From Bombilactobacillus thymidiniphilus (GTDB taxonomy: Bacteria > Bacillota > Bacilli > Lactobacillales > Lactobacillaceae), in assembly GCF_023380245.1 (NCBI RefSeq), contig NZ_CP093365.1, forward strand, positions 1,426,001 to 1,490,000: 64,000 bases of DNA, in the 5' to 3' direction. The notes beneath the pieces were generated by a model. It did no database searches, was not told the origin of the DNA, and worked only from the letters and a program-made list of their open reading frames with translations. The position numbers were made by a program, and so were the translations under genes. Shown here piece after piece: positions 36,294 to 64,000 of the stretch. How positions within the stretch are numbered: the stretch's first letter is position 1; every line of letters begins with the position of its first letter.

Positions 36294-36319
36294 TTAAGCA
36301 ATTATCTTGGATTTTAACG

Positions 36320-38254: not shown

Positions 38255-38298
38255 AAATGTAGAACTCCAATAACTAGATTTATTTTCTAAGTATCAAT

Positions 38299-38328: not shown

Positions 38329-38366
38329 ATTTTCTATTAAAATTTGAATTATGGTTTGGTAAAAAA

Positions 38367-48802: not shown

Positions 48803-49040
48803 ATTATTTTTCCATTACTATTATTTTTTTGTAAAAATTTTTAACATATCAACATATTTTTATAATATATTTTGATGATACATATATCAATAGCAATGAA
48901 TAATTTTCTAATTTTCCATAATAATAATATTACACAAATAATAAAACCCAAGAGGCAGATTTTTTGAATTAGCTTCCCAGGTTTTATTATTTGTTTAATG
49001 CTGTTATTAGTAAAGATATAGATTTAATTAATTACTTTAA

Positions 49041-49169
49041 TTACCAAAATTTGTGCCCCTTACTATTAAAGCCGTGTACAAAATCTATAGCGAATTGATA
49101 CCACTTTTCACCTGCAATGTTTAAAAGATCTTTATCATCTATGGTGTTAAATTTTATGAGTTGATTCAT
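49041..49169 (-). CDS. Bacteriocin-like peptide with degenerate double-glycine leader
   Basis: A 42-residue peptide, the last gene of a four-gene minus-strand operon. Leader residues at the expected -12, -7 and -4 positions (Ile, Leu, Ile) fit a double-glycine leader, but the cleavage pair reads Gly-Glu (NIAGE) in place of Gly-Gly. The rest, KWYQFAIDFVHGFNSKGHKF, is aromatic and amphipathic. GGAG lies 11 bases upstream. It may be poorly processed or cut after Ala-Gly. Confidence 0.6.
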   Translation of the reverse strand: MNQLIKFNTIDDKDLLNIAGEKWYQFAIDFVHGFNSKGHKFW

Positions 49170-49209
49170 CACTTAATTATCTCCTAACTAATTTAGTTAA
49201 CCGTCATCC

Positions 49210-49350
49210 TCAAAATAGGAGGGGAAGAAATGCAATGCCCACTTTTGCTATATGTCCGATAGTATGTGCGGCTCTATTATAGCCTCCATTTACAGATTGT
49301 AGATTTGTATCATCAATTGCTTTGAAATTGTTTAATTGATTGGTTTTCAT
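49210..49350 (-). CDS. Class II bacteriocin-like precursor with canonical double-glycine leader
   Basis: A 46-residue precursor. The 23-residue leader (MKTNQL...NLQSVNGG) has Ile -12, Leu -7, Val -4 and Gly-Gly. The mature part is 23 residues, starts YNRAAHTIGHIAKVG and ends in a hydrophobic FLPLLF. A cationic start and hydrophobic end suit a membrane-active peptide. The longer frame to 49431 is spurious. The ATG at 49348-49350 has GAGAGG at good spacing. Confidence 0.75.
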   Translation of the reverse strand: MKTNQLNNFKAIDDTNLQSVNGGYNRAAHTIGHIAKVGIAFLPLLF

Positions 49351-49376
49351 TTTTAACCTCTCCATGACTTTATTTG

Positions 49377-49493
49377 TCATAAAATACCAGAAACAAAAAA
49401 ATAGATCAAAATAATCATTACTTGCTGCCATTTGGGGCGTGCTCTGAAATTTTTAAATAATTTATGAAATTTTTCTTTCATATAATATGACAT
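49377..49493 (-). CDS. Small membrane peptide between bacteriocin-like genes
   Basis: A 38-residue open frame with a basic N-terminus (MSYYMKEKFHKLFKNFRARP) and one C-terminal membrane segment (VMIILIYFFVSGIL). GGAAAAG precedes the ATG. Its place inside the peptide operon and its topology would fit a small immunity protein. I do not recognise a family, and the size makes the call uncertain. Confidence 0.45.
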   Translation of the reverse strand: MSYYMKEKFHKLFKNFRARPKWQQVMIILIYFFVSGIL

Positions 49494-49521
49494 GCTCTTT
49501 TCCAAGTTTGGTTCAAAATAT

Positions 49522-49665
49522 TTAATTAATTAATCCAGATAAAAAACTACCTACAGCATCACCACATGTCCACCAAAAGCCATGTTTTTTTCCATCAATG
49601 ACTAGAGATAAACTTTGAGAATTAATACTTTGAAACTTTTGTAAACTAGAATTACTTTTAAGCAT
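49522..49665 (-). CDS. Bacteriocin-like precursor with Asp-Gly leader end
   Basis: A 47-residue precursor and first gene of the peptide operon. The leader has Ile -12, Leu -7 and Val -4, but ends Asp-Gly (LVIDG) in place of Gly-Gly. The predicted 22-residue product starts KKHGFWWTCGDAVGS and ends SGLIN, with one Cys. GGGGGT lies 7 bases before the ATG at 49665. The upstream extension of the frame to 49773 has no ribosome site. Confidence 0.65.
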   Translation of the reverse strand: MLKSNSSLQKFQSINSQSLSLVIDGKKHGFWWTCGDAVGSFLSGLIN

Positions 49666-49953
49666 ATCATTACCCCCTTTCTTTTTATTTATTTCAAACT
49701 TAGTTAATATAAATATAAATTTCAAGCTGGTAATTTTAGACAATACTAGTTCATAATATAAGACTAAGACCAATGATGTTTTTTTTTATAACAGTTTTTT
49801 TGTTTATATTTTTTGTAAATATTACTTGTAAAAATTGATTAGATATATGTTTTTATAATAGCTTGATTTGTATTTCATAAGACAATTTATTTCCTGGGAA
49901 ATGTGTCTTTGATAAATAGCTTGTGATTATTAAGATATCAACTACTATATTTT

Positions 49954-50483
49954 ATGAATATTATTATGTATGAAGTAGGATTATCGTTAGTTTTGTTATT
50001 AGTGCAGTTTGTAGTCTATTTATTGGTTCTGTGTTTAGATACGATTTGTGATTCTTAACTTTTGTCATTTACTTTATTTTGGCTATTTTAAGTTATGCCA
50101 GCAAGATGGATGTTTTAGATGTTTTTTTTAAAAATTAAGCACCAAAAAATTTATTATTATGATATGAGTACTTTGACGAAACGTATTTTATTGATGGTAT
50201 TTCCGTTTAGGCGACCACAAAATATTGATCTAAGTTCTATTGCATCTTATCAATTACAAGGTGACTATAATAAGTTTGAGGACATCAAATTACCTCTGCC
50301 TATGACGACCGCTTATGGTATTTTTTTCCAGCCATGTTATCAAGTAAAAATCCGATAGTTTTAAATTTGTATCTTAATGATTCAAAAGTTATCGTTATCA
50401 ATTTATCGATGAACTATGTTTACCATCCTTATGAATTTAGACAGAAGATAGATTCATTAAAATCTTATTTGTCAAGCAGATAG
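49954..50483 (+). pseudogene. Frameshifted small membrane protein with PH-like domain
   Basis: Pieces in three frames join into one protein of about 175 residues: a membrane segment from the ATG at 49954 (GLSLVLLLVQFVVYLLVLCL), a second one at about 50060-50100 (FVIYFILAILSYASKMDVLDV), then a soluble part from 50119 (YYYDMSTLTKRILLMVFPFRRP) that shifts frame in the T7 run near 50322-50328 to end at 50483 (NPIVLNLYL, YEFRQKIDSLKSYLSS). It could be a bacteriocin-associated membrane protein. I do not recognise the family firmly. Confidence 0.55.
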
Positions 50484-50569
50484 AACAGTATAGATTAAAG
50501 AGTAAGTGTTAATGAAAATAGTGATGATTGATAGTATTTTCATTTTATAATTAAGGAGAATGTGTAATA

Positions 50570-51286
50570 GTGAATGAAAAAATTATTTTGATATTTAAAG
50601 GTATAATAGTTTTGTTATTGGGATATATTTTAGGTTTTATGCTCGGAGGACTATTAGGTGATCTTTTTAACTTTTCTTTGAATGACAGAATGACGATGCA
50701 AAGAGTTACTATTTCTACAATTAGAATTATTTTGGCTATTGGTATATTAAAAATAGATCTGTTTCAAAAGACTAATTTTTTAAAGTGTAGTTTGAAGATA
50801 ATGGCAATAACTATTTTTATTTCTTTTATTATTAATAATAATTTCTCTTTTCATTTATTTAAGTATAATATGATTTTTGGTAATTTTTCTTATGCATTAT
50901 CTGAAGAAATATTTTATCGCGCTATATTGTTTACTATTCTTTATAAAATTTTTGTAAAAAGTAAAAAATCTTTTTTGATAGCTTCTATTATTGGATCATT
51001 ATTTTTTGCATTTGCACATTTTTTTAATATCATTAATAACTCTCAAAGCTTTAAATATACAATCGTACAAGTTTTTTTTGCCTTTGTTATAGGAATGTTT
51101 TTGTGTCTGTTATATAAAGTGTCTAATAATATTATTTTTCCGATACTAACTCATTTTGTTATTGACTTGGTTGCATCGTGTAGCCCCTCTGTAAATATTG
51201 ACTTAAATATAATTATATCTGTCATTGTATTTTTATTAGTATCATATTTAATATATTCATTAATTTATAAAAAACTTGAAATTTAA
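50570..51286 (+). CDS. CPBP-family intramembrane metalloprotease, second copy
   Basis: A 238-residue protein with seven or so membrane segments and all CPBP motifs: SEEIFYRAILF (EExxxR) near residue 120, FFAFAHFFN near 148 and THFVIDLV near 197. The start is GTG with AAGGAG upstream. It is encoded beside, and in the opposite direction to, the bacteriocin-like operon and is probably an immunity-type Abi protein. The gene is more AT-rich than the core genes. A terminator lies 69 bases downstream. Confidence 0.88.
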   Translation: MNEKIILIFKGIIVLLLGYILGFMLGGLLGDLFNFSLNDRMTMQRVTISTIRIILAIGILKIDLFQKTNFLKCSLKIMAITIFISFIINNNFSFHLFKYNMIFGNFSYALSEEIFYRAILFTILYKIFVKSKKSFLIASIIGSLFFAFAHFFNIINNSQSFKYTIVQVFFAFVIGMFLCLLYKVSNNIIFPILTHFVIDLVASCSPSVNIDLNIIISVIVFLLVSYLIYSLIYKKLEI

Positions 51287-51354
51287 TCAATAAAAGCATA
51301 TATTTTGTTGGTATTCATTTAAATAATAATCATTTATGTATTGCGCTATGACGG

Positions 51355-51377
51355 TGCTATCCGAATAGCATTTTTTA
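51355..51377 (+). terminator. Intrinsic terminator of the second CPBP gene
   Basis: A perfect 6-base stem TGCTAT/ATAGCA with CCGA loop and six T residues. It abuts the end of the convergent NUDIX gene and may serve both. Confidence 0.75.
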
Positions 51378-51379
51378 TT

Positions 51380-51820
51380 TTAAAACAATACATCACGTTG
51401 CCCATCTAATAGGTGTTCATTAAATTGTTCATCAAAAAATAGTGGCAGGTCATGATCAAAGTTAGGTGCCAAAGGAGATTGTAGTAATTCTTCTTTCGTC
51501 AGCCATTTCAGATTGCCTTCACGTGATGATTTTAGCTCACCACTAAATTGGTTGGCACGATAAAAAAAGACTAGGTAGCGATGATGTTCAGCATCGTAAA
51601 ATTGCTTGACACCCACTAATTTTGGCTGGGTAATCGTCAGATTAGTTTCTTCTTGCACTTCGCGGATAACGGACTCCGTAATAGATTCATGTGCTTCAAT
51701 ATGGCCGCCGGGGAAAGTTAAGCCTGGCCAATTAGGATCAACACGATTTAAGACTAGAATTTTGTCAGCATTGGTAATCATGCACATGTTGGTAAGGGTA
51801 ACTGATTCAGTTCGATCCAT
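51380..51820 (-). CDS. NUDIX hydrolase (MutT/8-oxo-dGTP diphosphatase-like)
   Basis: A 146-residue NUDIX protein. The box GGHIEAHESITESVIREVQEETNL (about residues 37-60) keeps the catalytic REVQEE, with Asn in place of the last Gly. Family members of this form act on oxidised nucleotides or other nucleoside diphosphates. The substrate cannot be read from the sequence. GGAGGTAGTT precedes the ATG. It stands alone and intact amid decayed genes. Confidence 0.9.
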   Translation of the reverse strand: MDRTESVTLTNMCMITNADKILVLNRVDPNWPGLTFPGGHIEAHESITESVIREVQEETNLTITQPKLVGVKQFYDAEHHRYLVFFYRANQFSGELKSSREGNLKWLTKEELLQSPLAPNFDHDLPLFFDEQFNEHLLDGQRDVLF

Positions 51821-51932
51821 TTAACTACCTCCTTTTTTATTTTTATTATAACAAAGTACAAATTTTAATTGAATTGCACAACAAAAAGGATTTGTTTTTC
51901 TCACGAAACGACAAATATTTAATGGTTAATTC

Positions 51933-52121
51933 TTGTTTTTTAATTTTTATTTGATACAATGAATTTGTGGCTGAGACCCCCCTCAGCCACAGCCAAACTT
52001 ATTTTGCATATTTAAGTTTCCCATATTAATATTTTCCTTTTTTTGTTTCCTGTTTTTTTGTCCTTCCAATTTTGACTATATCAGTCAAATAATAACATAG
52101 GCCGTCATTAGACGGCTTTTT
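51933..52121 (+). ncRNA. Candidate small RNA transcript with its promoter
   Basis: A promoter (TTGTTT at 51933-51938, 16 bases, extended -10 TGATACAAT ending at 51960) predicts a start near 51967, exactly at a perfect 10-base hairpin (TGTGGCTGAG/CTCAGCCACA, 51966-51991, C-rich loop). The transcript would end at an intrinsic terminator, GCCGTC-ATTA-GACGGC plus T run (52101-52121), giving about 150 bases with no open frame. It may instead be the untranslated leader of a deleted gene. Confidence 0.45.
52071..52089. promoter_or_regulatory. Palindrome resembling a TetR-family operator
   Basis: TTTGACT-ATATC-AGTCAAA, perfect 7-base arms, with TTGACT possibly a -35 box. Such sites commonly control efflux genes. 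The MFS fragment at about 52465-52666 could be what is left of its target. Confidence 0.4.
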
Positions 52122-52243
52122 TATTTTCTGAAATTAAATAGTGGAGGACACAATGTTGGATCATTTCTAGTTTGTTTAGATAATGGCTTAATAGTTCCAG
52201 TTAACTCGGGGAGCTGTCTTTTTATTTTTAATTAAAAATATAC

Positions 52244-52274
52244 TTGCTCTGGTGTCAACTCCAGAGTTTAAGAT
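52244..52274 (+). promoter_or_regulatory. MerR-type promoter with operator
   Basis: A -35 TTGCTC (52244-52249) and a -10 TAAGAT (52269-52274) are separated by 19 bases, the long spacer that MerR-family activators correct. The spacer region carries the near-palindrome CTCTGGTGTCAACTCCAGAG (52247-52266). It precedes the broken aldo/keto reductase gene, and a MerR gene follows at 52670. Confidence 0.75.
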
Positions 52275-52307
52275 ACCCTTTTATGCATGAATTGTGGAGG
52301 TAAGTTT

Positions 52308-52666
52308 ATGGAATATAAAACATTAAATAATGGTGTTCAAATACCATCACTCGGTTTTGGTGTTTATCAGATTCCAGCAGAGCAGACTAAAACAGCCGTA
52401 CTCCAGCTATTAGGACTGGTTATCGATTAGTCGATACGGCAGGAGCTTATCAAAATGAAGCTGGTGCTGCCATCAGTGTAACTAACACTGCCCATCAGAT
52501 TGGTTCATCAGTAGGATTAGCTTTAATTACCTTGTTGATAGAGCCATTTCAATCTACGGCAGTAATGTATCAACATGCGATGCAAATTTCTTTAATTTTA
52601 GTTGTTTTAACTTTTATTGTTGTGTGTTTTACAATTCATTCTAAAAATAAAAAGAAGCCTAATTAA
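52308..52666 (+). pseudogene. Deletion fusion of an aldo/keto reductase start to an MFS transporter end
   Basis: GGAGG and ATG at 52308 begin an aldo/keto reductase (NNGVQIPSLGFGVYQIP), which frameshifts near 52405 and continues GYRLVDTAGAYQNE in another frame. At about 52465 the sequence passes directly into the last part of a DHA2-type drug transporter (GAAISVTNTAHQIGSSVGLALI, then a final membrane segment and KKKPN stop). Over 1 kb between the two parent genes must have been deleted. It is not functional. Confidence 0.8.
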
Positions 52667-52669
52667 TTT

Positions 52670-53059
52670 ACGAAAATAAAAGAAGCCATTGTGCAAACTG
52701 GTTTGCCACTGGATACTACTCGTTATTATGAAAAGAGCGGTTTAATTATTCCGGTAGACCGTTATCAAGATGGGTCACACAATTTTACTGGTAAGAATAT
52801 TCGCCAGTTGCTATTTGCCAAAAAGATGCGTCGCGCTGGAGTATCTGTCGTTGCTTTAAAACAATATGTTAGCTTAGTTATTGCGGGTAATGATGCCACA
52901 ATTGCTTTACTTAAAGAGGTATTAAGTACACAAGCGCAGCGCATTGAACAAGAAATTAATGAATTGTCAGCTACTTTGATTTTATTGCAACATAAACTGG
53001 CTGTTTATGATACAAAAGCGCGCCAAAGTGAACAACAGTTTATTTTAGATGATGATTAA
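52670..53059 (+). CDS. MerR-family regulator, start codon apparently lost
   Basis: About 129 residues: a MerR winged helix (VQTGLPLDTTRYYEKSGLI) and a C-terminal dimerisation coil. The family N-terminus MKIKEAI is present, but its first codon is ACG at 52670 where ATG is expected. The first usable start is GTG at 52691, seven codons in, which would cut the first helix and has no good ribosome site. It probably once activated the 52244 promoter. The gene is probably silent or poorly expressed. Confidence 0.7.
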   Translation, partial: TKIKEAIVQTGLPLDTTRYYEKSGLIIPVDRYQDGSHNFTGKNIRQLLFAKKMRRAGVSVVALKQYVSLVIAGNDATIALLKEVLSTQAQRIEQEINELSATLILLQHKLAVYDTKARQSEQQFILDDD

Positions 53060-53086
53060 AGCTTTTGCGAGCAAAGTGTCATTTAA

Positions 53087-53133
53087 AAAGCCACCTAGTT
53101 AAGCTTTAAAGCTAATTAAGTGGCTCTTTATTT
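53087..53133 (+). terminator. Terminator of the MerR gene
   Basis: A long imperfect stem, AGCCAC with GTGGCT outside and GCTTTAAAGC inside (53089-53125), followed by a T-rich run. Confidence 0.65.
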
Positions 53134-53891
53134 TTGTTTAAAAGTGAAAACTGTTGTCAATTGAGTGACTTTAAGTCAAGGACAAGTGTCGAAAAATGAA
53201 GAGATGATGATGTCATATATTCAGATAAATAAAGTTGCGCACTTTTTGACGATTTCTGCAATAGATGAAAAATGGATATTAAATTGAAACTAATTGTCCA
53301 ATAACATACTGATATTTTTCAATGCAAGCATTCCTATGGAAGTGTGATATTATTGGCTTTTTTAAAGTAAATGCTCACACGCAAAGCATGAAATATGTAC
53401 GCTGTTGAGCATTGGAATTAAACGGGAAGTTATTATGAAAACTAAAAAATTATTTTTAGTGGTGGACCAGTATTAGCACAGTTTTTAGGTATTTTAAAAA
53501 TAAGCAACGGGTCTTAGATCAATTAGTTACCAATTATTTGTATTTGCATGATGTGAAACAGGTGATCAGTAAATTTCGACCCCAATGCCAGGTTAGTATT
53601 TTTTTAGTAAATTTGGAATGATTTTTACTTGAACAATAAATTGGAGTAAAGTTGCCTTTTGGGTGCTGTCTTTGCTGCCCAGACAGCTTAATCCTATTAA
53701 TTTTTGAAGGTCCAAAGTAGTTGCTAATATGATAAACTGATTAACATAAGGAATTTATATTAAAAATAAATTGTAAAATAGATTGTTTTTTTAATTTTAA
53801 TGATGTATGCTAAATTGCAGAAAGTTTCTGCTTATGCTCCTAATATAAAATTCCTGGTAGCTGGTAAATTAGATGAAAAGACAATTAAACT
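53134..53891. other. Gene-free region with decayed coding traces
   Basis: I see no intact gene. From the ATG at about 53435 a broken frame (MKTKKLFL, then in another frame YFKNKQRVLDQLVTNYLYLHDVKQVISKF to about 53615) looks like a former small protein of unknown family. An inverted repeat AATGCTCA/TGAGCATT spans about 53369-53416. The rest is AT-rich. Confidence 0.45.
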
Positions 53892-55125
53892 ATGGCATCA
53901 ATTTATAAATGGTTAAACAATAAAAAAAGATTATCTATTTATTTAACAACATTTTCCAATTTTAGTAAGGCAGTAGTGCTTTATTTCGCAACTATCTTCT
54001 TATATAAAATAGATAATTCTGGTGCTTCTTCAGGCTTTTTAGTACTGTTAGGTCTGCTGGCTGTTTCACTTAGCGGGATGATTGCACCTTTTTTAATTAT
54101 CCATTTTAAGGGATTTAAGTTAGGTATATTACTATCGATGGTTAGTTTAGTTGCGGAGTTTTTGTTTTTTATATTTTATCAACAAAAGATTCCCCTATAT
54201 TGCTGTATTGTTGTGATCAATCTGATTCAAGGAATTGAATCTGCTAATTATAATTATGAGTTGGTAGATATTTTTGAGAATGATGTTGAAGATCAGATCC
54301 AATCTAACAATGGTTATCATATTTTATTACAAACATTCACGTTGATTGCACCTATACTAGGCTATTTGCTAGTTAATTACTGCATTGTTTTAGCTAGTTG
54401 TGTAGTAGTGTTGTTTCTTCAATTGGTAGCTTTAATTGCATGGTTCATTCTTAAGAAATATGAACCACTAAATAAGAGTAATGTAGATATTCCAAAATAT
54501 CCTTTCAAAAATTATCTTTTAGCCATAAAAAATAAAAATGTTGTTTTTTTAAATTTAGTTCGTAGCGCGAATGGTTTTGTTTTTAACACCTGGGAGATTG
54601 CTGCCCCCATGGTGATTATGGCAATTGCAGAAAATCAAGCGCAATTGTCATCTAAAATTCAAACTACGTATGAAACAACATTAAGTATTGCTTTCATCTT
54701 GTCAGGAGCTTTTTTGGGGTAAGATTATGACTAATGTAAAATTGTTACCTCGTTTTTACAAGTTAGTTCCTTTTGGTGGACTGTTAGCTACTATTATTGC
54801 ATTAAGTTTACAAACAATGTCCTCTCTACTATTAGCTACTCTTATATTTGGTGTCAGTATTTATTTTTTTCGCGTAGGAACTGCAACGATTGGTCAAATT
54901 ATTACGGACAAAGATTTAATTGCTGAATCAATTATTTTGGGAGACGTTTTTACGCGGTTTGTTAACTTTGTGGTTGGAATTGGTTTCTTTTTCATAATTA
55001 AATTTCTTGATTACAAGATTGTTGTTATATTGATATCAATTTTGGGAACAATTGGTAATGTGTTGTTTGTAGATCAGCCTATCAAAGCTTATTCAGATCT
55101 TATAAAAAGTAGAGGATCACTGTGA
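53892..55125 (+). pseudogene. MFS transporter split by a single-base insertion
   Basis: Two frames (53892-54722 and 54688-55125) together encode a major facilitator of about 410 residues with about 12 membrane segments. The break is in the GGGG run at 54716-54719: removing one G joins GAFLG to KIMTNVKLL. No family signature identifies its substrate. An export role near peptide genes is possible. Either a recent mutation or a homopolymer sequencing error explains it, and the neighbouring broken genes favour mutation. Confidence 0.75.
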
Positions 55126-55394
55126 ATGGTTTTTAAAATACTTAAGTAGTGGCAAAACAGGCTACTTGGTTGATAATTATTTGCCTGATGTGGGATAAAT
55201 TATTGGTAGTGATGTTATTAACTTTATTTATTTGTTTGTCCCTATTCAGGACTGTATTTTATCGTACTGATTTTTGGAATCAGAAGTAAACCTAAAATAA
55301 AAATAGATCATAATTAATTTATAAAAATCTTGATATTAACTATAGCTTGAATTTTACAGTGTCCGGTATAATAAATTAAACAGGAGGAATATTA

Positions 55395-55649
55395 ATGATT
55401 GGATTACACATTTTTTTCGGAGTGATGATCGTTGTGGGTGCGATTGCCACGGCAATTTCTTTCCAAGGGGACACCGCTAAACTGACTAAAGCGCAAAAGT
55501 TTTCTTTGATTCTGACAACATCTGCGATTGGGCTAACTATCGTTACGGTTATTTCAGTGTATGCATCGATTTACATTGGTTTATTACTATTATTGGCGCT
55601 AGTGGCTTCTGAGTATTTTGCCTTTGTACGGGTAGTTCATAACAAGTAG
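55395..55649 (+). CDS. Small membrane protein, unknown function
   Basis: An 84-residue protein with three membrane segments (about 3-22, 38-58 and 60-80) and a charged loop (QGDTAKLTKAQKF). AGGAGG is at perfect spacing, a TATAAT lies at 55367-55372, and a strong terminator follows, so it is probably expressed. The preceding 270 bases (55126-55394) contain no other gene. I do not recognise the family. Confidence 0.75.
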   Translation: MIGLHIFFGVMIVVGAIATAISFQGDTAKLTKAQKFSLILTTSAIGLTIVTVISVYASIYIGLLLLLALVASEYFAFVRVVHNK

Positions 55650-55660
55650 TATTGATGAAG

Positions 55661-55691
55661 AGCGTGCTTTTATAAAAGCGCGCTTTTTTTT
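55661..55691 (+). terminator. Intrinsic terminator of the small membrane protein gene
   Basis: An 11-base stem AGCGTGCTTTT/AAAAGCGCGCT with one G-U pair and eight or more T residues. Confidence 0.9.
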
Positions 55692-55818
55692 ACTGCTCTC
55701 AATTATGTTTTAATTTGCTATATATTACAAAATTGGAATTGACAGTAAAAATAAAGATTCTCAAGTTTAAGCTAATTTCTAAAATATAGTTAATTATTAA
55801 TTAATGGGAAAATTGGGT

Positions 55819-56303
55819 ATGGACAATGTAACCCTATTAGTAATTGATGTCCAAAAAACTTTTCGCGACGGCATTGGGGAGTGAGTAATAAAGAATTTGC
55901 TTGAAATAACGTGCATTAACTGTTACAGGCTTTTCGCCAGCGCAACGGGTTAGTTATTAATGTACATCATATTAGTGATGATCCTAAATCACGATTTTAT
56001 TTTCAGAATACTGGTTTTTAGTTTTAAAAGCAGTCTGAACCTTTACCTTCAGAAATTGTTTTGGATAAAACTGTAAACAGTGCCTTTATTGGAACTAAAC
56101 TAAAAAGTATTTTACTAGAATGTCAGATTGAAAAAGTATTTATCTGTGGTTTGACAACGCCACATTGTGTTTCCACTACTACGCGAATGTCTGGTAATTT
56201 GGGATTTGATACTTACTTAGTTGAAGATGCAACAGTCTCTTTTGCAATTATGGATTACCAGGGATTTCATTTGTTCGCTAAATGGCCATATCTTAAACGA
56301 TAA
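55819..56303 (+). pseudogene. Broken isochorismatase-family cysteine hydrolase
   Basis: The start MDNVTLLVIDVQKTFRDGIG has the catalytic Asp of the family and is cut by a TGA near 55882. Later pieces in other frames (NGLVINVHHISDDPKSRF) lead into the intact C-terminal part from 56061, with GLTTPHCVSTTTRM carrying the nucleophile Cys and GFDTYLVEDATVSF. Several stops and frameshifts separate them. Confidence 0.85.
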
Positions 56304-56421
56304 GACATACAGTGATGCTTTGATTGTAAGCTTGATTTTAAATCAACAATGAATATATTCTTAGATATACCTAATTCATATATACGCGTTGGGTAAATAT
56401 AAAAGTGTGGGAGGAATAGTA

Positions 56422-56583
56422 ATGAATACTTCTTTTGAAACAAATTGGATCAAAGAAAATATCGAAGCTTTAGATTGTGAAAGCTTACAGTTAATTCAAG
56501 GAGCTCTAGAAAAGATTATAAGGCTGGTTATGCATGGGGGCAAGGCTGTAAGGCATCGCTGTAGATATATGGACAATTTTTAA
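56422..56583 (+). CDS. Double-glycine-type peptide precursor, probably frameshifted at the cleavage site
   Basis: GGGAGGAATA precedes the ATG. The leader (LDCESLQLIQGA) has Leu -12, Leu -7, Ile -4 and ends Gly-Ala, an accepted variant. In frame, the product is a basic LEKIIRLVMHGGKAVRHRCRY-type tail, 53 codons in all. If one base were restored after CAAGG, the other frame reads SSRKDYKAGYAWGQGCKASL and stops, which looks far more like a bacteriocin. A single-base deletion at the cleavage codon is therefore likely. Confidence 0.55.
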   Translation: MNTSFETNWIKENIEALDCESLQLIQGALEKIIRLVMHGGKAVRHRCRYMDNF

Positions 56584-56609
56584 ATAATTTTGGAGGAGAA
56601 GGTTTTGTT

Positions 56610-56765
56610 ATGGAAAATAATTATTTAGAATTATCAGATAACTCTTTGGGCGAAATTTTGGGAGTCGGACATGCTTATACCGCAGCCGCAATCCGTAGAA
56701 ATAATAGGTCCATGCAATCGGCTGCAGACTTTGCTTGTGGATTTTATCATGGCTTTTTTGGCTAA
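56610..56765 (+). CDS. Bacteriocin-like peptide precursor
   Basis: A 51-residue precursor with a strong GGAGGAGAAGG upstream. Leader spacing (Leu -12, Leu -7, Ile -4, Gly -2) holds, but position -1 is Val (EILGVG). The product is about 32 residues, GHAYTAAAIRRNNRSMQSAA then DFACGFYHGFFG, rich in Ala and Gly with one Cys. It follows the preceding peptide gene by 26 bases and might be the second peptide of a two-peptide bacteriocin. Confidence 0.65.
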   Translation: MENNYLELSDNSLGEILGVGHAYTAAAIRRNNRSMQSAADFACGFYHGFFG

Positions 56766-56851
56766 ATAGTTTGAATGAATTTTTATTATTGGATACTAAT
56801 CTTTTTATATATATTATTATGGGATTTTATCATATTTAGGAGAATAGCTAT

Positions 56852-57548
56852 ATGAGTCATAAAAGATTAACAAACAGACTTATAGTATTACTGGTTTTAG
56901 AAGTTTTATTTGAATTTGGTATGGTGAATTTTTCGAGATATCTTCATGAAAACAGCAGTGTGCTTTTTTTATGTTTAGATAAGTTTTTATTCTTGGGTTT
57001 ACTGATTCTGTTGAATAACTGGCTAACACAACGAAAAATCCCTTTTTCTTTGAAACTCAATAAAGATCAACAAAAAGGCATTTTGGTTGTTGCTGGAATT
57101 TTAATTATTATGGGTTTGATGAATGTAAAGAATTTTTTGAATGCCATCGCTGTGGGCTTTATAGCTGGTACGACTGAAGAGTATCTTTTTCGAGGAGTCG
57201 TATTGCTAACACTATTGGAATTATTTGATCATTTCCAGTATCTTGTTTGGTTCGGAGCATTTTCTGAATCTATACTCGCAAAGTTTTTCGGCAACAATAA
57301 TCCAAGTTTTGCAGACGACGGCTATGGGATTTGTGTTTGCTAGTATTTTTGTTAGAACCAATAATTTACTATTTCCTATGTTATGTCATTTTAGCTTAGA
57401 CTATGTGGTCACTATTCTTTGGGGAATGCAGAATAGTAGCAATATTTCGTTTGGTAGTGCTATTGGTGTGTCAGTATTTTATTTAATAGTTGGTTTGTTT
57501 ATTTTGATGCCAATATTGACCGATAATAAGTTAAAAGTTGAAAAATAA
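56852..57548 (+). pseudogene. Frameshifted CPBP-family protease, third copy
   Basis: Frame one (from 56852) carries GTTEEYLFRGVVLL, the EExxxR motif. It leaves frame near 57225, and the other frame carries SSILFGSEHFLN (FxxxH equivalent) and CHFSLDYVV up to 57548. Joined, this is a CPBP membrane protease of about 230 residues, lesioned between motif 1 and motif 2. It directly follows two bacteriocin-like peptide genes, in the position of an immunity gene. Confidence 0.8.
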
Positions 57549-57682
57549 TGTTTTTGGGAGTGCCTGAAGGAAAAGAATGGATTGAACAACGCTTTGAAAC
57601 AGCTATTTTGGTGAATCAGTGGCCGGTAAAGACTCATAGTTATTACACTACTATTGTGATTTTTAGAAAGTGGTTGAATTAA
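57548..57682 (+). CDS. Short open frame, unknown
   Basis: A 44-codon frame (MFLGVPEGKEWIEQRFE, then NQWPVKTHSYYTT) whose ATG overlaps the CPBP stop. It lacks a ribosome site and reads like the C-terminal scrap of a larger enzyme. I do not recognise it. Confidence 0.3.
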   Translation: MFLGVPEGKEWIEQRFETAILVNQWPVKTHSYYTTIVIFRKWLN

Positions 57683-57982
57683 ACCTGCAATTTCCTTCCT
57701 AAAATTAAAATTGTAACTTCGAAAATTGTTGACTTTTAATTTTTGGGGTCTTAATCTTAAGTTAGATATGAGTGTAATAGATAGTTATTTTTCTTAAATA
57801 ATTTAAAAAATAATCCTACTCCAAAAATTTCATCAACATCTTCTGTAATTACATATTCATCTGGATCATTATCTGCTTTTAAATTACCTAATGTAAAAAT
57901 AGCAGGGCTAGGTCCAGTGATTTATCTAAATTGATTACTGTAATTATTGATTTCTTTTCCTCAGATGGATAGAGGTGGACAA
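57683..57982. other. Gene-free stretch with a minus-strand coding trace
   Basis: No intact gene. On the minus strand, about 57925-57785 reads TGPSPAIFTLGNLKADNDP then EYVITEDVDEIFGVGLFFKL without a start codon, possibly a protein remnant. Confidence 0.35.
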
Positions 57983-58713
57983 ATGAAATTCACTGTAAAT
58001 GGATTATCAAAGCGCTATAAAACATCACATATATTGACTAACGTTAATTTTGATTTTGATATGAGTGTGTGCAACATAATTGCACTAATTGGACCGAATG
58101 GCATTGGTAAAACTACACTTATGAGATTAATGGCAGGTATTACTATTCCCAATGCTGGTGATATCTCCATAGATAATTCCACTAACTTAACGTACGAAGC
58201 TTGGGCGCGAGTAAATACCATCTTTGTTCCGGCTGGTGAAAGAGGATTAAGAAACAAACTGACTATTTACCAAAATTTAGAATATTTTTCGGCTCTAAGT
58301 AATCAAAATTATCAAGAAAATGCTGATCATCTAACAAGTTTAGCCAAATTATTTAACATTACTAACTTTGTAAAAAATGATTTTGAAAAACCTCAACTGG
58401 TCAAAAGAAAAAGGCATCTTTACTAGTTGCTGCTGCCATGAATTCCAAAATGTTGTTATTAGATGAGCCCTCTAATGGCCTTGATATTGATGCTCAAAAA
58501 GAATTAATGACATTGATGTCTAAACTATCGGAACTAGAGAAAATAATTATAGTTTCGTCTCATGATCCGGAATTAATTAGTACAGTGGCGCAAAGCTATG
58601 TTTTCTTAGGAAACGGGCGCGTGCTCAAACAGACATTTGGTCAGGTTTCAAAAGAAAAATTAGTTAATAGATATCACCAATTATACGGATTGGGGGTGAT
58701 AAACGATGATTAG
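57983..58713 (+). pseudogene. ABC transporter ATP-binding protein, frameshifted at the signature motif
   Basis: From ATG 57983 (after AGAGGTGGACAA) the ATPase has Walker A GPNGIGKTT near residue 43. At about 58392-58400 the frame breaks just before the signature. The other frame gives STGQKKKASLLVAAAM then LLLDEPSNGLD (Walker B) and VSSHDPEL (H-loop) to 58713. The two halves are otherwise complete, about 240 residues. It may have served peptide export or immunity and is coupled to the permease gene by an 8-base overlap. Confidence 0.85.
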
Positions 58714-59494
58714 GCAAGGCATTATAAGATTATTCCTGGTTGAATTAAAAATGGAATGGATCACCAGAATGAAATATATTATGGCGTCTATTGGTGATTT
58801 TGTGGTCTTTACAGTTACATTTCTAGCAGTGACATTTGTGGCGCCAGTTTCTGCGGTAAACAGCACCTATCATACTAATCAAGGCCTGTTACTTATTATG
58901 ATTGGTTATATGTTTTGGAATTTAGGTGTTGTAGCGATGGATATTGGCACACAAGTGATTGAAAGTGCTGCCAAGAGTGGGATATTAGAAATAGAGATGT
59001 AATCTAAGTATCCACTTTGGCTACTAATATTTATCAGAAACATTGTCACAAATGCCTTTGTGGTTATGTATCTAATATTTCTTGGTGTTGCAACGTCGCT
59101 ATTTACTAATTTGAAGTTTTCGACAATCTTACTTGCTATTATTTATGTCACAATATTGTCTATGCTTACCAATTTAGGTATGTTAGGTATTGGATTTATA
59201 TTTGCTTCAGGATCATTGTCGTTTAAAAGAATAGGACAATGGTCTACACTACTCCAAGCAGCGATTATATTATTTTCCAATGTTGGAATACCGTTAACAA
59301 CTCCACTACAATTAATTGTTCCTTTTTCAGGCGGAATAGAAATTGTGCGAAGCTTAATACTTAATAAGCCTATATCAGTTAACGAATTAATCATCACGTT
59401 AATAGTAAACATCTTATGGTTTATTGCTGGGATTGTTGTTTTGAACGTTAGTGTAAAGAATGAACGAAAAAATGGCTCATTTACGGCCTTTTGA
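58706..59494 (+). pseudogene. ABC-2 type permease with an in-frame stop
   Basis: About 262 codons in one frame, interrupted only by TAA at 59000-59002 between GILEIEM and SKYPLWLLIF. About six membrane segments and the order after the ATPase identify an ABC-2 permease. A single base substitution explains the stop. A second start near 59060 would give only the C-terminal half. Confidence 0.8.
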
Positions 59495-59543
59495 TTGTAG
59501 TAAAAACATATTGTCTAGTACAAGGAAGCAGGTAAATATTTAC

Positions 59544-60089
59544 ATGAAAAAAATTCTTTTATTTAATTCGTCAACGCATGATCCTTCTAATTCGGCCATT
59601 TTAGCCAAATTAGTCTTAAAGGGATTGGATTATCAGGATATAAATCTAAATAATGTCCAAATAGGTGATGTGCAAGATTTTCGGTTTGCGTCTAGTTGGC
59701 CTCGCCAAGATGATGATTATTATCGTATCAGTGAACAGCTCCAAGCAGCTGATGTAATTGTTTTGGCAACACCGGTCTATTGGTATGGTGTCGCTGCCAC
59801 ACTGAAAAGGTTCATCGATCGATGGTCCGAAAGTCTCAAAGTGGATGATAATTTTCGAGCAGCAATGCAAGGCAAACAAATTGTCTTGGTTATTGTTGGT
59901 GGCGATAATCCTATAGTTAAAGGTCAACCGATTGTTGAGCAGTTTAATTATATTTGCGAGTTTTTGGGTATGGAATTGTTGACTAGTGTAATTGGAGAAG
60001 CTAATCGACCGAATACAATTCAAAATGATTCACACGCGCTGTCTCAAGCTGAGGCGGCTAACACAATGCTTAAAAAATTGTGTCAGTAG
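59544..60089 (+). CDS. NADPH-dependent FMN reductase / flavodoxin-like oxidoreductase
   Basis: A 181-residue flavodoxin-fold enzyme: LLFNSSTHDPSNS (phosphate-binding start), ATPVYWYGVAATLKRFIDRW near residue 72 and VIVGGDNP near 118. It probably reduces FMN, quinones or nitro-compounds. The open frame reaches back to 59460, but the ATG at 59544 gives the family start. It appears intact, a contrast to its neighbours, and is followed by a perfect terminator. Confidence 0.88.
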   Translation: MKKILLFNSSTHDPSNSAILAKLVLKGLDYQDINLNNVQIGDVQDFRFASSWPRQDDDYYRISEQLQAADVIVLATPVYWYGVAATLKRFIDRWSESLKVDDNFRAAMQGKQIVLVIVGGDNPIVKGQPIVEQFNYICEFLGMELLTSVIGEANRPNTIQNDSHALSQAEAANTMLKKLCQ

Positions 60090-60110
60090 GAAATGGAATA
60101 CAATTGATTC

Positions 60111-60142
60111 AAAAAGCTTGTTGCTAGCAACAAGCTTTTTTA
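60111..60142 (+). terminator. Perfect palindromic terminator
   Basis: A perfect 15-base-arm palindrome (AAAAAGCTTGTTGCT with its complement, centre between 60125 and 60126) whose right arm ends in T residues, 22 bases after the reductase stop. Confidence 0.9.
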
Positions 60143-60301
60143 TGTTCAATAATCTTTTCTTTGTGAGGGCACACCTTTTTTGTCAGTAACAATTCAGCAA
60201 AAGTCTGATATACCAACGCTGCACCTCTTAGTTGCGTTAAAGCTCGTAAGATGTTCGTGCTTTTTTTAAGTGGCAATTTCATAATCACCTTGTATTGAGA
60301 G

Positions 60302-60535
60302 GTGTGGTCTTTGGGAAAGGATGGAAATGATGTCCATGTTAATATGATTATTTTTTTGATTATTATGCCAGCTTTGTTAAACTTGCCGTTGTTTTTTAAA
60401 AGTCGTAATCAAATGACGACAACAGTCCAATTATTGATGATGTGCATTTATTTAATAATATTTTTATTAGCTACTACCACAATGCTTATGAATAATAATT
60501 ATGATAATGACATTTGTTGTTGGCATGGTTTCTAA
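60302..60535 (+). pseudogene. Remnant of a small membrane protein
   Basis: The frame encodes two membrane segments (MIIFLIIMPALLNLPLFF and LLMMCIYLIIFLLATTTML) and then leaves a better continuation in the next frame (TFVVGMVSNIGDLMM stop at about 60557). It lacks a good start. The region 60143-60301 shows no gene. The mirror of its end begins at 63944. Confidence 0.4.
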
Positions 60536-60585
60536 TATTGGTGATTTGATGATGTAAAGTTATAACAAAAAGTGATTCTAGGGCA

Positions 60586-60883
60586 ATGAATTAGAGAAGA
60601 ACGAGAAAAAAGAAATTGGACACAAACTCAATGTTAGCCGCCAGTCTGTGTCTAAATAACTTATCCAGATATTGAGCGTCCAATTCAAATTAGTGATCTA
60701 TTTGCGGTTAGTTTAAACAGTCTGATACGTGATGATGAAAAATTTCAGCAACAGATTAAATTTCAAAAACTACGAAATGGCATGACCTTTTGGGATTTCT
60801 TGAGTTATCGTTGGTGGATTATTTTTGTCATTGCTTGGTGTTTAGCGTGGTTACTGCCAATAGTTATTCATGCTCTGAAGTAG
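60586..60883 (+). pseudogene. Broken XRE regulator with membrane anchor (left arm)
   Basis: Reading across frames gives an XRE helix-turn-helix remnant (RREREKRNWTQ, then NVSRQSVSK followed by a stop, then YPDIERPIQISDLFAVSLNSL) and a C-terminal membrane segment (WWIIFVIAWCLAWLLPIVIHALK). Bases are missing inside the helix-turn-helix and a stop replaces the usual Trp after VSRQSVSK. It is a relative of the regulator at 48164-48802. Confidence 0.75.
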
Positions 60884-60932
60884 TAATCAATAAAAATGAT
60901 TGAAAATGTATCTTAAAGCATAAAGGATATTC

Positions 60933-61289
60933 ATGACAAAATTAATGAATTATCCTAACCAATATCAATTTACTCTCGCAGAAAATTGCCGTTTTGCACG
61001 TGCTAATTGTACATGTAAAATGCGGCTGTTTTTGACAGTACCTAAAGAATATCAGCCTAAGAATGTTACTAAAGACTAAATTTTAAAAGTGACGATTAAT
61101 TTGTTAAAGGGATATGAAACGCAATTTAGATCAGGATATGTTCAAAATCGTGGAACCAACAAATTTATTGGCTACCCTATTAGAGAGTGCTTGATTAATT
61201 ACAATAAGCGGGTTCCATATTATGGCACGTATCCAGAAATTAAAAGAAAAATATCAGCAGGTCGTTTATTTGTTTCGCATGGATGAAAT
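60933..61289 (+). pseudogene. Interrupted gene of unknown family (left arm)
   Basis: AAAGGATA precedes the ATG at 60933. The frame (MTKLMNYPNQYQFTLAENCR, then LFLTVPKEYQPKNVTKD) meets TAA near 61078 and continues in frame (ILKVTINLLKGYETQF, then RGTNKFIGYPIRECL) to a stop at about 61286. Two or three Cys in the first part (RFARANCTCKM). I do not recognise the family. Confidence 0.5.
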
Positions 61290-61429
61290 TATGCATCGTG
61301 AATCGAAAAATTAAAACTTCATCAATATGGATCGCTAATTAACCGATCTGGTGAGCAAGTTGATGTGCATTTATAGAGATTTTAACCAGACTTCATTCTG
61401 TTTCTGGAAAATAATGAAGTCTATAGGGT

Positions 61430-61624
61430 ATGAGTAGTGATAAGTTTGTTAGTGAATTATGGAAACAAGATTTGTTACTTTACATGTTCGATCACCAAGC
61501 TGAGATGGAATTTGAATAGGAATATGATGATGATGTGTACGTTAACGGTGCGAAATTCCACATTAAAGGTGATAGACAAAATACTATGAACAAGCTTGAT
61601 CGATTAACTAGTGCTGATGATTAG
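61430..61624 (+). pseudogene. Short interrupted frame of unknown family (left arm)
   Basis: ATG at 61430 after TATAGGG. It encodes MSSDKFVSELWKQDLLLYMF, meets TAG near 61518, and continues EYDDDVYVNGAKFHIKGD then NKLDRLTSADD to 61624. A hairpin AGACTTCATT/AATGAAGTCT (about 61388-61422) lies just upstream and may be an older terminator. Confidence 0.4.
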
Positions 61625-62854
61625 TTCTAATTCTAGGATTTACATTTTTATTTTTTAATATACCATCTATCCCTTAAAGTTGAGACCGATGAGCAATTAA
61701 AAGATTCTTTTGAGTACTACGGCGGATATTAATAAATTATTTTAAAAATATTTATCTCATGTAACTATATTTATGAGCCTGATAAATAATAGTAAATTTG
61801 GATCTATTCTATTTATTTATGATTTGTTTATGGATATAACAAATGAATATAGTAAATTTAACAATTAATCAAAATATATTGAATTTGTTGATTGAAAATT
61901 GACTGGATCAAATAAATAATCATAAGTTGATATTTTTTAAATGTGTAAATTAATTAAAAATAAAGTATCTATTAAATATATATGATCTTTTGAACGATTA
62001 AGATATTTAAAAAATATTAAATGTGTTGAGTTAAATTATATCCTTCGTTTATAGTTTAACTTTTTTGTCTAAAATTTCGTTGTGTACGAAATTGCAAAAT
62101 GATGTGCTGATGAAATTTAAAAATATTAGTATTAGTAGTAAAATGGTACATCTTTTTATTGAGAATCAATATGAAAACTATATATAAATATTTATAAAAA
62201 GTTCCAAAATGATACGGTATATATATATCCTATGAGCTATAGCTCATAGGATATATATATACCGTATCATTTTGGAACTTTTTATAAATATTTATATATA
62301 GTTTTCATATTGATTCTCAATAAAAAGATGTACCATTTTACTACTAATACTAATATTTTTAAATTTCATCAGCACATCATTTTGCAATTTCGTACACAAC
62401 GAAATTTTAGACAAAAAAGTTAAACTATAAACGAAGGATATAATTTAACTCAACACATTTAATATTTTTTAAATATCTTAATCGTTCAAAAGATCATATA
62501 TATTTAATAGATACTTTATTTTTAATTAATTTACACATTTAAAAAATATCAACTTATGATTATTTATTTGATCCAGTCAATTTTCAATCAACAAATTCAA
62601 TATATTTTGATTAATTGTTAAATTTACTATATTCATTTGTTATATCCATAAACAAATCATAAATAAATAGAATAGATCCAAATTTACTATTATTTATCAG
62701 GCTCATAAATATAGTTACATGAGATAAATATTTTTAAAATAATTTATTAATATCCGCCGTAGTACTCAAAAGAATCTTTTAATTGCTCATCGGTCTCAAC
62801 TTTAAGGGATAGATGGTATATTAAAAAATAAAAATGTAAATCCTAGAATTAGAA
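61625..62854. other. AT-rich core around the palindrome centre
   Basis: About 1.2 kb of extremely AT-rich DNA (both arms) with no open frame, tRNA or recognisable origin boxes. The centre is an alternating AT tract flanking CCTATGAGCTATAGCTCATAGG. I see no integrase or telomere-resolvase gene nearby. Confidence 0.6.
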
Positions 62855-63049
62855 CTAATCATCAGCACTAGTTAATCGATCAAGCTTGTTCATAGTATTT
62901 TGTCTATCACCTTTAATGTGGAATTTCGCACCGTTAACGTACACATCATCATCATATTCCTATTCAAATTCCATCTCAGCTTGGTGATCGAACATGTAAA
63001 GTAACAAATCTTGTTTCCATAATTCACTAACAAACTTATCACTACTCAT
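62855..63049 (-). pseudogene. Mirror copy of the 61430-61624 remnant
   Basis: Exact reverse complement of the left-arm frame, same internal stop. It exists only because of the inverted repeat. Confidence 0.4.
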
Positions 63050-63189
63050 ACCCTATAGACTTCATTATTTTCCAGAAACAGAATGAAGTCTGGTTAAAAT
63101 CTCTATAAATGCACATCAACTTGCTCACCAGATCGGTTAATTAGCGATCCATATTGATGAAGTTTTAATTTTTCGATTCACGATGCATA

Positions 63190-63546
63190 ATTTCATCCAT
63201 GCGAAACAAATAAACGACCTGCTGATATTTTTCTTTTAATTTCTGGATACGTGCCATAATATGGAACCCGCTTATTGTAATTAATCAAGCACTCTCTAAT
63301 AGGGTAGCCAATAAATTTGTTGGTTCCACGATTTTGAACATATCCTGATCTAAATTGCGTTTCATATCCCTTTAACAAATTAATCGTCACTTTTAAAATT
63401 TAGTCTTTAGTAACATTCTTAGGCTGATATTCTTTAGGTACTGTCAAAAACAGCCGCATTTTACATGTACAATTAGCACGTGCAAAACGGCAATTTTCTG
63501 CGAGAGTAAATTGATATTGGTTAGGATAATTCATTAATTTTGTCAT
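63190..63546 (-). pseudogene. Mirror copy of the 60933-61289 remnant
   Basis: Exact reverse complement of the left-arm gene, with the same TAA interruption. Confidence 0.5.
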
Positions 63547-63595
63547 GAATATCCTTTATGCTTTAAGATACATTTTCAATCATTTTTATTGATTA

Positions 63596-63893
63596 CTACT
63601 TCAGAGCATGAATAACTATTGGCAGTAACCACGCTAAACACCAAGCAATGACAAAAATAATCCACCAACGATAACTCAAGAAATCCCAAAAGGTCATGCC
63701 ATTTCGTAGTTTTTGAAATTTAATCTGTTGCTGAAATTTTTCATCATCACGTATCAGACTGTTTAAACTAACCGCAAATAGATCACTAATTTGAATTGGA
63801 CGCTCAATATCTGGATAAGTTATTTAGACACAGACTGGCGGCTAACATTGAGTTTGTGTCCAATTTCTTTTTTCTCGTTCTTCTCTAATTCAT
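63596..63893 (-). pseudogene. Mirror copy of the broken XRE regulator
   Basis: Exact reverse complement of 60586-60883, carrying the same deletions and stop, which shows that the duplication is younger than the decay or is an artefact. Confidence 0.7.
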
Positions 63894-64000
63894 TGCCCTA
63901 GAATCACTTTTTGTTATAACTTTACATCATCAAATCACCAATATTAGAAACCATGCCAACAACAAATGTCATTATCATAATTATTATTCATAAGCATTGT

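Follow-up and report, generated by a model that had tools for sequence, protein, structure and literature searches.

Hairpin-ended linear chromosomes are known from few bacterial lineages, and chromosomes in the group to which Bombilactobacillus thymidiniphilus belongs are expected to be circular. To our knowledge, all enzymes that make hairpin ends in bacteria are protelomerases of the ResT/TelN/TelA type. This study concerns the end of a 64,000-nucleotide stretch of the B. thymidiniphilus genome (bases 1426001-1490000 of the single 1,494,436-base contig NZ_CP093365.1), hereafter called the window, whose positions are used unless stated otherwise. A long, perfect palindrome is located at this end. 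As judged from comparisons of sequence, it very probably belongs to one telomere of a linear, hairpin-ended chromosome.

Several described systems resemble this structure in part. Enzymes of the ResT/TelN/TelA type form hairpins in bacteria (PMC12624138, PMC13293297). The chromosome of 'Candidatus Phytoplasma mali' has hairpin ends, 42.9-kb identical terminal inverted repeats, and weakly similar candidate resolvases (PMC2459194). The left end of pELF1 from Enterococcus faecium is presumed to be a hairpin, and its raw assembly contained perfect inverted repeats of approximately 5 kb around the sequence TATA (PMC6863802); the same TATA loop was reported for pELF2 (PMC7142295). For the Macrococcus plasmid p19Msa1099_9, 14.1-kb terminal repeats, covalently closed ends in long reads, and a RusA inside the repeats were described (PMC12016501). 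Outside bacteria, the inverted-repeat junctions of poxviruses are believed to form cruciforms and to be resolved by a Holliday-junction resolvase (PMC6962361).

Structure of the contig ends

A preliminary description of this DNA had reported an exact palindrome with arms of at least 1761 bases and no spacer, which was confirmed. All 1761 of 1761 pairs around the centre between positions 62239 and 62240 are complementary out to the window edge, and the next-best centre among those scanned reached only 34% pairing. In the full contig, the perfect run comprises 1889 pairs on each side of the centre. Beyond this run, the palindrome extends with few small indels to approximately 6.16 kb per side, which is the contig end; the contig thus continues as its own reverse complement. 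The mirroring of the pseudogene lesions reported for both arms is an automatic consequence of the palindrome, in which one arm is the complement of the other.

What had been described at the window end is the initial 1.8 kb of a structure that is larger and is found at both ends of the contig. Each end consists of a 16,099-base arm, the tip, and a 6,197-base fold-back tail (Table 1). At the contig start, the same palindrome is centred between contig bases 6197 and 6198. Contig bases 1-22296 are the reverse complement of bases 1472141-1494436 with 99.97% identity (one mismatch, six gaps), and the first 10,802 bases of this inverted end-to-end match are exactly identical. Of the features of hairpin-ended chromosomes, the perfect palindrome that corresponds to the replicated form of a telomere is present at the end, and a tip with terminal inverted repeats is present at both ends. 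About 35 bases of homopolymer-like sequence at the end of the tail lie outside the palindrome.

In sampled 20-kb stretches, the GC skew remained negative as far as 770 kb, was mixed but mostly positive thereafter, and was positive from 850 kb onwards. Both contig ends are therefore located on the terminus side of the chromosome. A search for DnaA boxes did not yield the position of the origin.

The tip in related genomes

Two groups were searched: seven genomes of the genus, including B. thymidiniphilus (G000 in this set, its relatives being G001 to G006), and 397 genomes of the family. The assignment to a Lactobacillaceae-type organism agrees with the genes as read, with an RNase P of class B, and with the composition of the family group. 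The tip core, allowing up to three mismatches, was detected in 3 of the 397 family genomes, all of this genus (G000, G004, and G006), and the reversed control pattern in none. In G004, a perfect palindrome with arms of 15,318 bases (C1:796025-826660) lies at the terminus, its centre between positions 811342 and 811343 coinciding with the change in sign of the skew. A second, 15-kb contig of this genome (C2) repeats the arm redundantly and runs 1012 bases beyond the centre. The tips of B. thymidiniphilus and G004 share the same terminal 12 bases, TCCTATGAGCTA before and TAGCTCATAGGA after the centre. Their arms are mostly unrelated except at the outer boundary, at the tip, and over approximately 500 bases that match at 88%.

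The tip of G006 reads TCCTATGGGCTATAGCCCATAGGA, with a change that is mirrored on both sides of the centre. Contigs C6 and C7 each carry a tip centre, 14 bases inside the start of the former and 63 bases before the end of the latter. These contigs are 92% alike across 1.1 kb and therefore represent two separate ends. The 63 bases of C7 past the tip are the exact complement of C7 itself (0 differences), whereas 6 of 63 differ from C6. The C7 end thus folds on itself, since an end-to-end junction would read into C6. A 39-base motif inward from the tip (TAGCYCATAGGANNNNTATNNNNCRTATYATTNTGRNAC), which was derived from the tips of these three species, had no further match at up to three mismatches in the seven genus genomes. 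Contig C6 (68 kb, tip at its start) encodes RepA_N, two ParA-type ATPases, and actin-like, AAA, and FtsK-like proteins, and it resembles a linear plasmid of the pELF kind, here in a Lactobacillaceae-type genome. The interpretation of C6 and C7 as both being chromosome ends was dropped in view of this linear-plasmid-like gene content.

Some further observations were made on the arms. The match between the G000 and G004 arms covers window positions 49983-50484, and genes for CPBP-type membrane proteases and a small open reading frame (ORF; 49522-49773), read as bacteriocin-like, are located nearby. The G004 palindrome centre (C1:811342) is 50 bases off the exact contig midpoint, and genes read as ssb and gyrA are located close to the contig start; it is only suggestive that the deposited sequence might have been made by joining two linear ends, followed by a half rotation. 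All three tip-bearing genomes encode related repetitive surface-type proteins within or close to their ends (G000:C1:50891-52966, G004:C1:819838-822855, and G006:C6:1248-3632), which hints at exchange between the ends of plasmids and those of chromosomes. Several genes of the B. thymidiniphilus arm (window 53892-59494; MFS-like, CPBP-like, and an ABC ATPase and permease) are broken into overlapping frames, which could mean that the genes are truly decayed or that read polishers skipped the repeat and left indels in it.

Absence of dif, xerC, and xerD

The dif site and the recombinases XerC and XerD serve the resolution of dimers of circular chromosomes; they are not needed on linear chromosomes and may be absent there. 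Among the seven genus genomes, a dif site at one mismatch was detected only in G002 (at 629,724), G003, and G005. In B. thymidiniphilus, no site resembling any of three dif patterns was found in 108 kb of the ends at up to seven mismatches, and a 21-base dif core was absent genome-wide at up to three mismatches. No dif was found in G004 either. Dif-like matches at three mismatches in G001 and G006 did not exceed the level of the reversed control and were discounted.

G002 and G005 carry xerC, xerD, and dif, and G003 (160 contigs) carries xerC and dif, with xerD not found. The tip-bearing genomes G000, G004, and G006 have none of the three, and PF00589 gave only weak fragments in G006. The two recombinases of G002 are named XerC and XerD by NCBIfam. 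In this genome, xerC is located between genes which we take to be hslV and topA, and xerD lies one gene from a presumed scpA. Both genes are gone from between these conserved neighbours in B. thymidiniphilus and G004; the bases left between the aligned neighbours are 24 and 26 (xerC and xerD place, respectively) in the former and 103 and 24 in the latter. The presence of the tip together with the absence of the dimer resolution system fits a linear chromosome.

The gene order around the G002 dif is in line with this. A block of the window is colinear with the left side of the site (Table 1), and the region to its right (635-660 kb) is colinear with the left end of the B. thymidiniphilus contig (56771-79998). 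The order on both sides is as expected for a B. thymidiniphilus chromosome that was opened at dif.

Likeness to the tips of linear plasmids

Read from the axis, the pELF_AA818 and pELF2 tips are TAGGGAATAGGACTTTTGTTTC and the tip of G006 C7 is TAGCCCATAGGACTTTTATTTC, with 18 of 22 positions identical in register. The other tips scored 16/22 (G006 C6 and G004) and 13/22 (B. thymidiniphilus). In 712,988 sequence windows of these genomes, nine reached a score of at least 16 against the pELF tip and two a score of 18. Both of the latter are the two arms of the C7 tip; the other seven comprise three in the C6 and G004 tips and four elsewhere. On this comparison, the resemblance to pELF is compelling in G006 and moderate in G004; in B. 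thymidiniphilus alone, it is not significant.

A tip core, AGCCCATAG, was also recognized in records of Staphylococcus caprae, S. warneri, and Mammaliicoccus sciuri. The tips of S. caprae, S. warneri 16A, and M. sciuri are CAGCCCATAGCACTT, with one unpaired centre base, and the S. warneri 2023.05 record begins with TAGCCCATAGCACTTG. In 409,852 sequence windows of G006, just three sites scored at least 13/15 against this Staphylococcaceae core, all of them tips of G006, and the tips of G004 and B. thymidiniphilus scored 11/15 and 10/15, respectively. The B. thymidiniphilus tip had no match among plasmids using blastn, nor did 6.2 kb of the arm using megablast. No exact match to the 24-base tip or the 39-base motif was present in viral_contigs. 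When genome_contigs was scanned with a protein of the arm, the sole match was a distant locus of Anaerolineales.

The pELF-type record NZ_CP025427.1 contains a perfect fold-back arm of 8,435 bases at the pELF hairpin, with genes annotated twice, and is a positive control for assembly fold-back at a hairpin. Of the 92 records matching the pELF end, 40 were listed, and in 20 of these the telomere occurs at two or more places. In the two such records examined (NZ_CP025427.1 and NZ_LR135332.1 are among the examples), the telomere is the palindrome centre. Fold-back copies appear to sit in public E. faecium records of PLSDB.

A conserved gene trio including RusA

Comparison of sampled regions around the tips revealed a trio of genes, one of which encodes a RusA-family Holliday-junction resolvase (Table 1). 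The trio is present in all three tip-bearing genomes (window 39335-40875 in G000, G004:C1:760450-762083, and G006:C6:57144-59056), at different locations in G000 and G004; further shared genes may exist. In B. thymidiniphilus, it is located 21-23 kb from the tip and outside the arm. Apart from the trio, the set shared with C6 in the sampled regions consists of surface-type proteins, common transporters, and regulators. The identity of other RusA proteins to that of B. thymidiniphilus is 70% (G004), 65% (G006), 55% (S. caprae), and 38% (pELF). The residues D97, D99, K103, and D117 are invariant, and we take them to match the catalytic residues of RusA.

Gene 1 showed no family above the cut-off, and gene 3 neither a Pfam family above the cut-off nor a relative in the PDB. 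For RusA, the profile found no PDB relative at E ≤ 0.01, and no NCBIfam match was obtained at E ≤ 1e-3. Gene 3 had no match in 50,697 phage records. When its profile was used as a single degenerate peptide pattern in a search for a viral origin, seven stretches were retrieved, none of them a relative. A single-sequence structure model of gene 3 with a mean predicted local distance difference test score (pLDDT) of 36 was left unused.

The trio is also found on plasmids. In PLSDB, RusA matched 127 records (126 at a coverage of at least 80%), gene 1 matched 12 (5 at this coverage), and gene 3 matched 114, of which 101 are from Enterococcus and none covers 80% of the query. The order of the trio is kept in plasmids of E. 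faecium, Lactobacillus johnsonii, Melissococcus plutonius, and S. caprae, where all three proteins align, gene 1 weakly. In S. warneri 2023.05, gene 3 is divided into two ORFs and gene 1 is without a match. The records of S. chromogenes, M. sciuri, and Macrococcus have the trio no more than 2.3 kb from their end, and in those of S. caprae and S. warneri 16A it adjoins the tip. Three staphylococcal records (NZ_CP051644.1, CP031270.1, and NZ_CP048735.1) are labelled circular and carry, or begin with, the tip palindrome. Because of this palindrome and the adjoining trio, they are probably hairpin-ended linear plasmids despite their label. Several public plasmid records appear to contain the same kind of fold-back or to have a doubtful topology label.

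Table 1. Coordinates of the telomeric features, the gene trio, and the colinear block in the window
Feature	Position in window	Strand	Remarks
Right-hand terminal arm, 16,099 bases	46141..62239	+	Near-identical inverted copy at contig 6198-22296 (99.97%)
Tip core, TCCTATGAGCTA/TAGCTCATAGGA	62228..62251	.	Palindrome centre; putative hairpin turn between 62239 and 62240, central TATA
39-base motif TAGCYCATAGGANNNNTATNNNNCRTATYATTNTGRNAC, inward from the tip, left arm	62201..62239	-	0 mismatches at the G000, G004, and G006 tips
39-base motif, copy on the folded-back strand	62240..62278	+	Same motif match
Start of the 6,197-base fold-back tail	62240..64000	+	Presumably no separate chromosomal DNA but the arm's complementary strand, reached by reading round the tip
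Trio gene 1, 166 amino acids	39335..39835	+	Weakly helix-turn-helix-like, score below cut-off; homologues on plasmids and in G004 and G006
Trio gene 2, RusA-family Holliday-junction resolvase, 148 amino acids	39828..40274	+	PF05866, E = 9.3e-21
Trio gene 3, 206 amino acids, no family	40255..40875	+	Shorter than the plasmid homologues (~300 amino acids)
Block colinear with the left side of the G002 dif (604-625 kb)	12014..39248	+	Contig 1438014-1465248, some insertions

Proposed origin and resolution of the ends

The hairpin telomere considered in the preliminary description is supported by the tip core in three species, the identical opposite contig end, the absence of dif, xerC, and xerD, and a likeness to the tips of hairpin plasmids that is mediated by the congeners. 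We propose that the tip was acquired, probably from a hairpin-ended linear plasmid of Bacilli of the sort represented by pELF in Enterococcus and by the plasmids of Staphylococcaceae, by recombination at the replication terminus, and that dif, xerC, and xerD were lost afterwards. Each end would be a covalently closed hairpin, with the turn in the window between positions 62239 and 62240. Reads that pass round such a turn enter the complementary strand, so that the assembly folds back on itself. Replication starting from an internal origin would copy round the hairpins and leave a perfect palindromic junction between the sister chromosomes, and the tip palindrome may then be extruded as a cruciform.

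The protelomerase gene whose search had been suggested was not detected in the genome, which makes the trio the best candidate for end resolution. The gene 1 product might bind the tip, RusA would act as the Holliday-junction nuclease, and gene 3 would provide a partner. Together they could cut the four-way junction, and ligation would generate two new hairpins in a poxvirus-like manner. Given a linear chromosome, we consider the case for resolution of the replicated ends by the RusA trio to be about evenly balanced. A wider proposal is made with slightly less than even confidence: a protelomerase-free hairpin system of Bacilli, consisting of RusA and two partners, may be plasmid-borne in Enterococcus, Staphylococcaceae, and Lactobacillaceae-type hosts and may have captured a chromosome at least once, converting a circle into a linear molecule at the terminus and rendering dif and XerCD dispensable.

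The instability of long palindromes in the presence of SbcCD had been brought forward in the preliminary description. Its nuclease subunit SbcD is encoded in B. thymidiniphilus, so that the argument does not choose between the readings. SbcD scored above the cut-off in G000, G001, G002, G003, and G004 but not in G005 and G006; a loss of SbcCD as a correlate of the tip was rejected, because this pattern does not track the tip.

Alternative explanations

Several results weigh against a linear, hairpin-ended chromosome. Taking B. thymidiniphilus and G004 alone, the assembly graph would look no different for a circle that contains one giant palindrome. No PF16684 protelomerase was found in any of the seven genus genomes, B. 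thymidiniphilus included, at E ≤ 1e-3. The low scores of the B. thymidiniphilus tip imply that its link to plasmids goes via G006: the 13/22 obtained with pELF is below the best chance match in its own arm (15), and a score of 10/15 to the staphylococcal core is reached by 495 of 847,430 sequence windows. The pELF score of 16 of the G004 and G006 C6 tips equals the best found elsewhere. Since C6 is plasmid-like, G006 supports a hairpin tip but not by itself a linear chromosome, and for pELF, too, the hairpin has been presumed on the basis of reads and folding, the other pELF end being protein-bound. The records of S. chromogenes, L. johnsonii, and Macrococcus (older version) bear the trio and are labelled linear, yet no tip core was present at their examined ends. 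In G001, the genus scan gave neither a XerC/XerD-like score nor a tip, and the trio was absent from 92 kb of G002 around dif, the sole dif-bearing stretch checked. Finally, with SbcD encoded in the genome, hairpin ends would need protection. In N15, TelN protects the ends (PMC12624138); by analogy, gene 1 or gene 3 might do so here.

It is improbable that the chromosome is circular, with one giant palindrome (2 x 16.1 kb) formed at the terminus by fold-back repair, a mechanism that has been proposed for L. delbrueckii subsp. bulgaricus, and the contig cut inside it. Such a circle is graph-equivalent to a linear molecule with identical ends, it agrees with the terminus-side position of the contig ends, and large inverted repeats at the terminus do exist in the circular chromosomes of L. 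bulgaricus. These repeats, however, have spacers of 1-8.8 kb and a dif site, whereas B. thymidiniphilus has no spacer and no dif was found. Fold-back at a random break does not predict that G000 and G004 share the same centre with mostly unrelated arms. The loss of dif and both xer genes, the two diverged G006 ends that each bear the tip, one of them self-folding, and the resemblance of tip and trio to hairpin plasmids also speak against it. A fusion of the chromosome with the junction of a linear-plasmid dimer, the unresolved palindrome being kept in a circle, would account for the plasmid-like tip and trio and is nevertheless very improbable: an intact trio and perfect symmetry should lead to resolution, the loss of dif and xerCD is better explained by linearity, and a perfect 16-kb palindrome would be expected to decay in a cell encoding SbcCD (SbcD was found). 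We give hardly any credence to the view that the structure is purely an artefact of assembly or library, folded back where an ordinary circular chromosome happens to have a local palindrome. Assemblers and libraries can produce fold-backs, and the homopolymer-like bases at the tail end outside the palindrome would suit one, but the same tip occurs at both contig ends and in three species, the 39-base motif is conserved, xer and dif are absent, and the tip is like that of hairpin plasmids. The fold-back artefact named in the preliminary description therefore stands as an assembly by-product, yet one of the kind that a hairpin end yields, and not as the sole explanation.

The main rival to resolution by RusA shares the linear, hairpin-ended structure and differs only in the enzyme, so that its probability overlaps with that given to the linear chromosome. 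In this case, a very divergent tyrosine-type resolvase would have escaped detection, and the trio would serve repair, recombination, or plasmid maintenance. We regard this as possible, though clearly short of an even chance. The bacterial hairpin-makers known to us are all of the ResT/TelN/TelA type, and RusA is common on phages (phrog_140). In P. mali, hairpins occur with merely weakly similar candidate resolvases (PMC2459194). Against such an enzyme, PF16684 gave nothing in G004 and G006 even at E ≤ 10, PF00589 at the same threshold gave only the weak fragments in G006, and the trio is what the sampled regions share with C6 besides the more commonplace genes mentioned above. Gene 3 has no match in the phage records, and the trio is located at or near the ends of linear plasmids. 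At E ≤ 10, PF16684 also returned a stop-ridden match in B. thymidiniphilus and a partial one in G005, both at noise level, and a weak PF00589 match in G001:C12 turned out to lie inside an ORF read as a DEAD-box helicase.

Comparison with known systems

Among the matches listed for the open-access literature searched, no linear chromosome of Lactobacillaceae and no link between RusA and bacterial telomeres was found. The pELF plasmids (pELF1, pELF2, and pELF_AA818) resemble the B. thymidiniphilus group in the TATA turn, in the tip, which aligns in register for G006 C7 (18/22) but reaches 13/22 in B. thymidiniphilus itself, and, in the case of pELF_AA818, in the trio. They differ in being plasmids, some with drug-resistance cargo, and in their protein-bound right end, whereas both B. 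thymidiniphilus ends bear the same palindromic tip. The pELF backbone (rep, ftsK, and clpX) may be compared with the RepA_N, ParA-type, actin-like, AAA, and FtsK-like proteins of G006 C6. RusA is not mentioned in the available main text of the pELF papers examined. In the plasmids of Staphylococcaceae (Macrococcus, S. warneri, S. caprae, M. sciuri, and S. chromogenes), the trio is likewise present and situated near the end or tip, in contrast to its distance of 21-23 kb in B. thymidiniphilus. Apart from being plasmids, they differ in that the tips of S. caprae, S. warneri 16A, and M. sciuri leave one centre base unpaired and in that some are labelled circular. The available part of the Macrococcus paper notes RusA in the repeats and gives it no telomere role (PMC12016501).

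Among chromosomes, that of P. mali is likewise small, AT-rich, and linear, with long identical terminal inverted repeats. Its hairpin was shown experimentally, its tip was compared with that of Borrelia, it belongs to another lineage, and the trio is unmentioned in the accessible part of the paper (PMC2459194). Borrelia and Agrobacterium also have hairpin ends and palindromic replicated junctions, but they use the protelomerases ResT and TelA, the like of which was not detected in B. thymidiniphilus. The large inverted repeat at the terminus of Lactobacillus delbrueckii subsp. bulgaricus is a further similarity; this chromosome is circular, however, with a spacer of 1-8.8 kb and dif within the repeats (PMC5345009). 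The working model of end resolution is like that of poxviruses, with the differences that the poxvirus enzyme is RuvC-like and not RusA and that a virus is concerned; no homology is implied.

Likely linear and dif-bearing, presumably circular, chromosomes thus occur in one genus, with a break in gene order at dif and xer genes missing from between conserved neighbours. With such congeners at hand, the conversion of a chromosome to the linear form and the losses that follow can be tested directly. The trio is, in addition, a candidate end-resolution machine for the linear plasmids of the pELF type and of staphylococci. Compared with the systems described so far, the B. thymidiniphilus chromosome would be a variant of the hairpin-ended linear chromosomes that stands outside the protelomerase systems.

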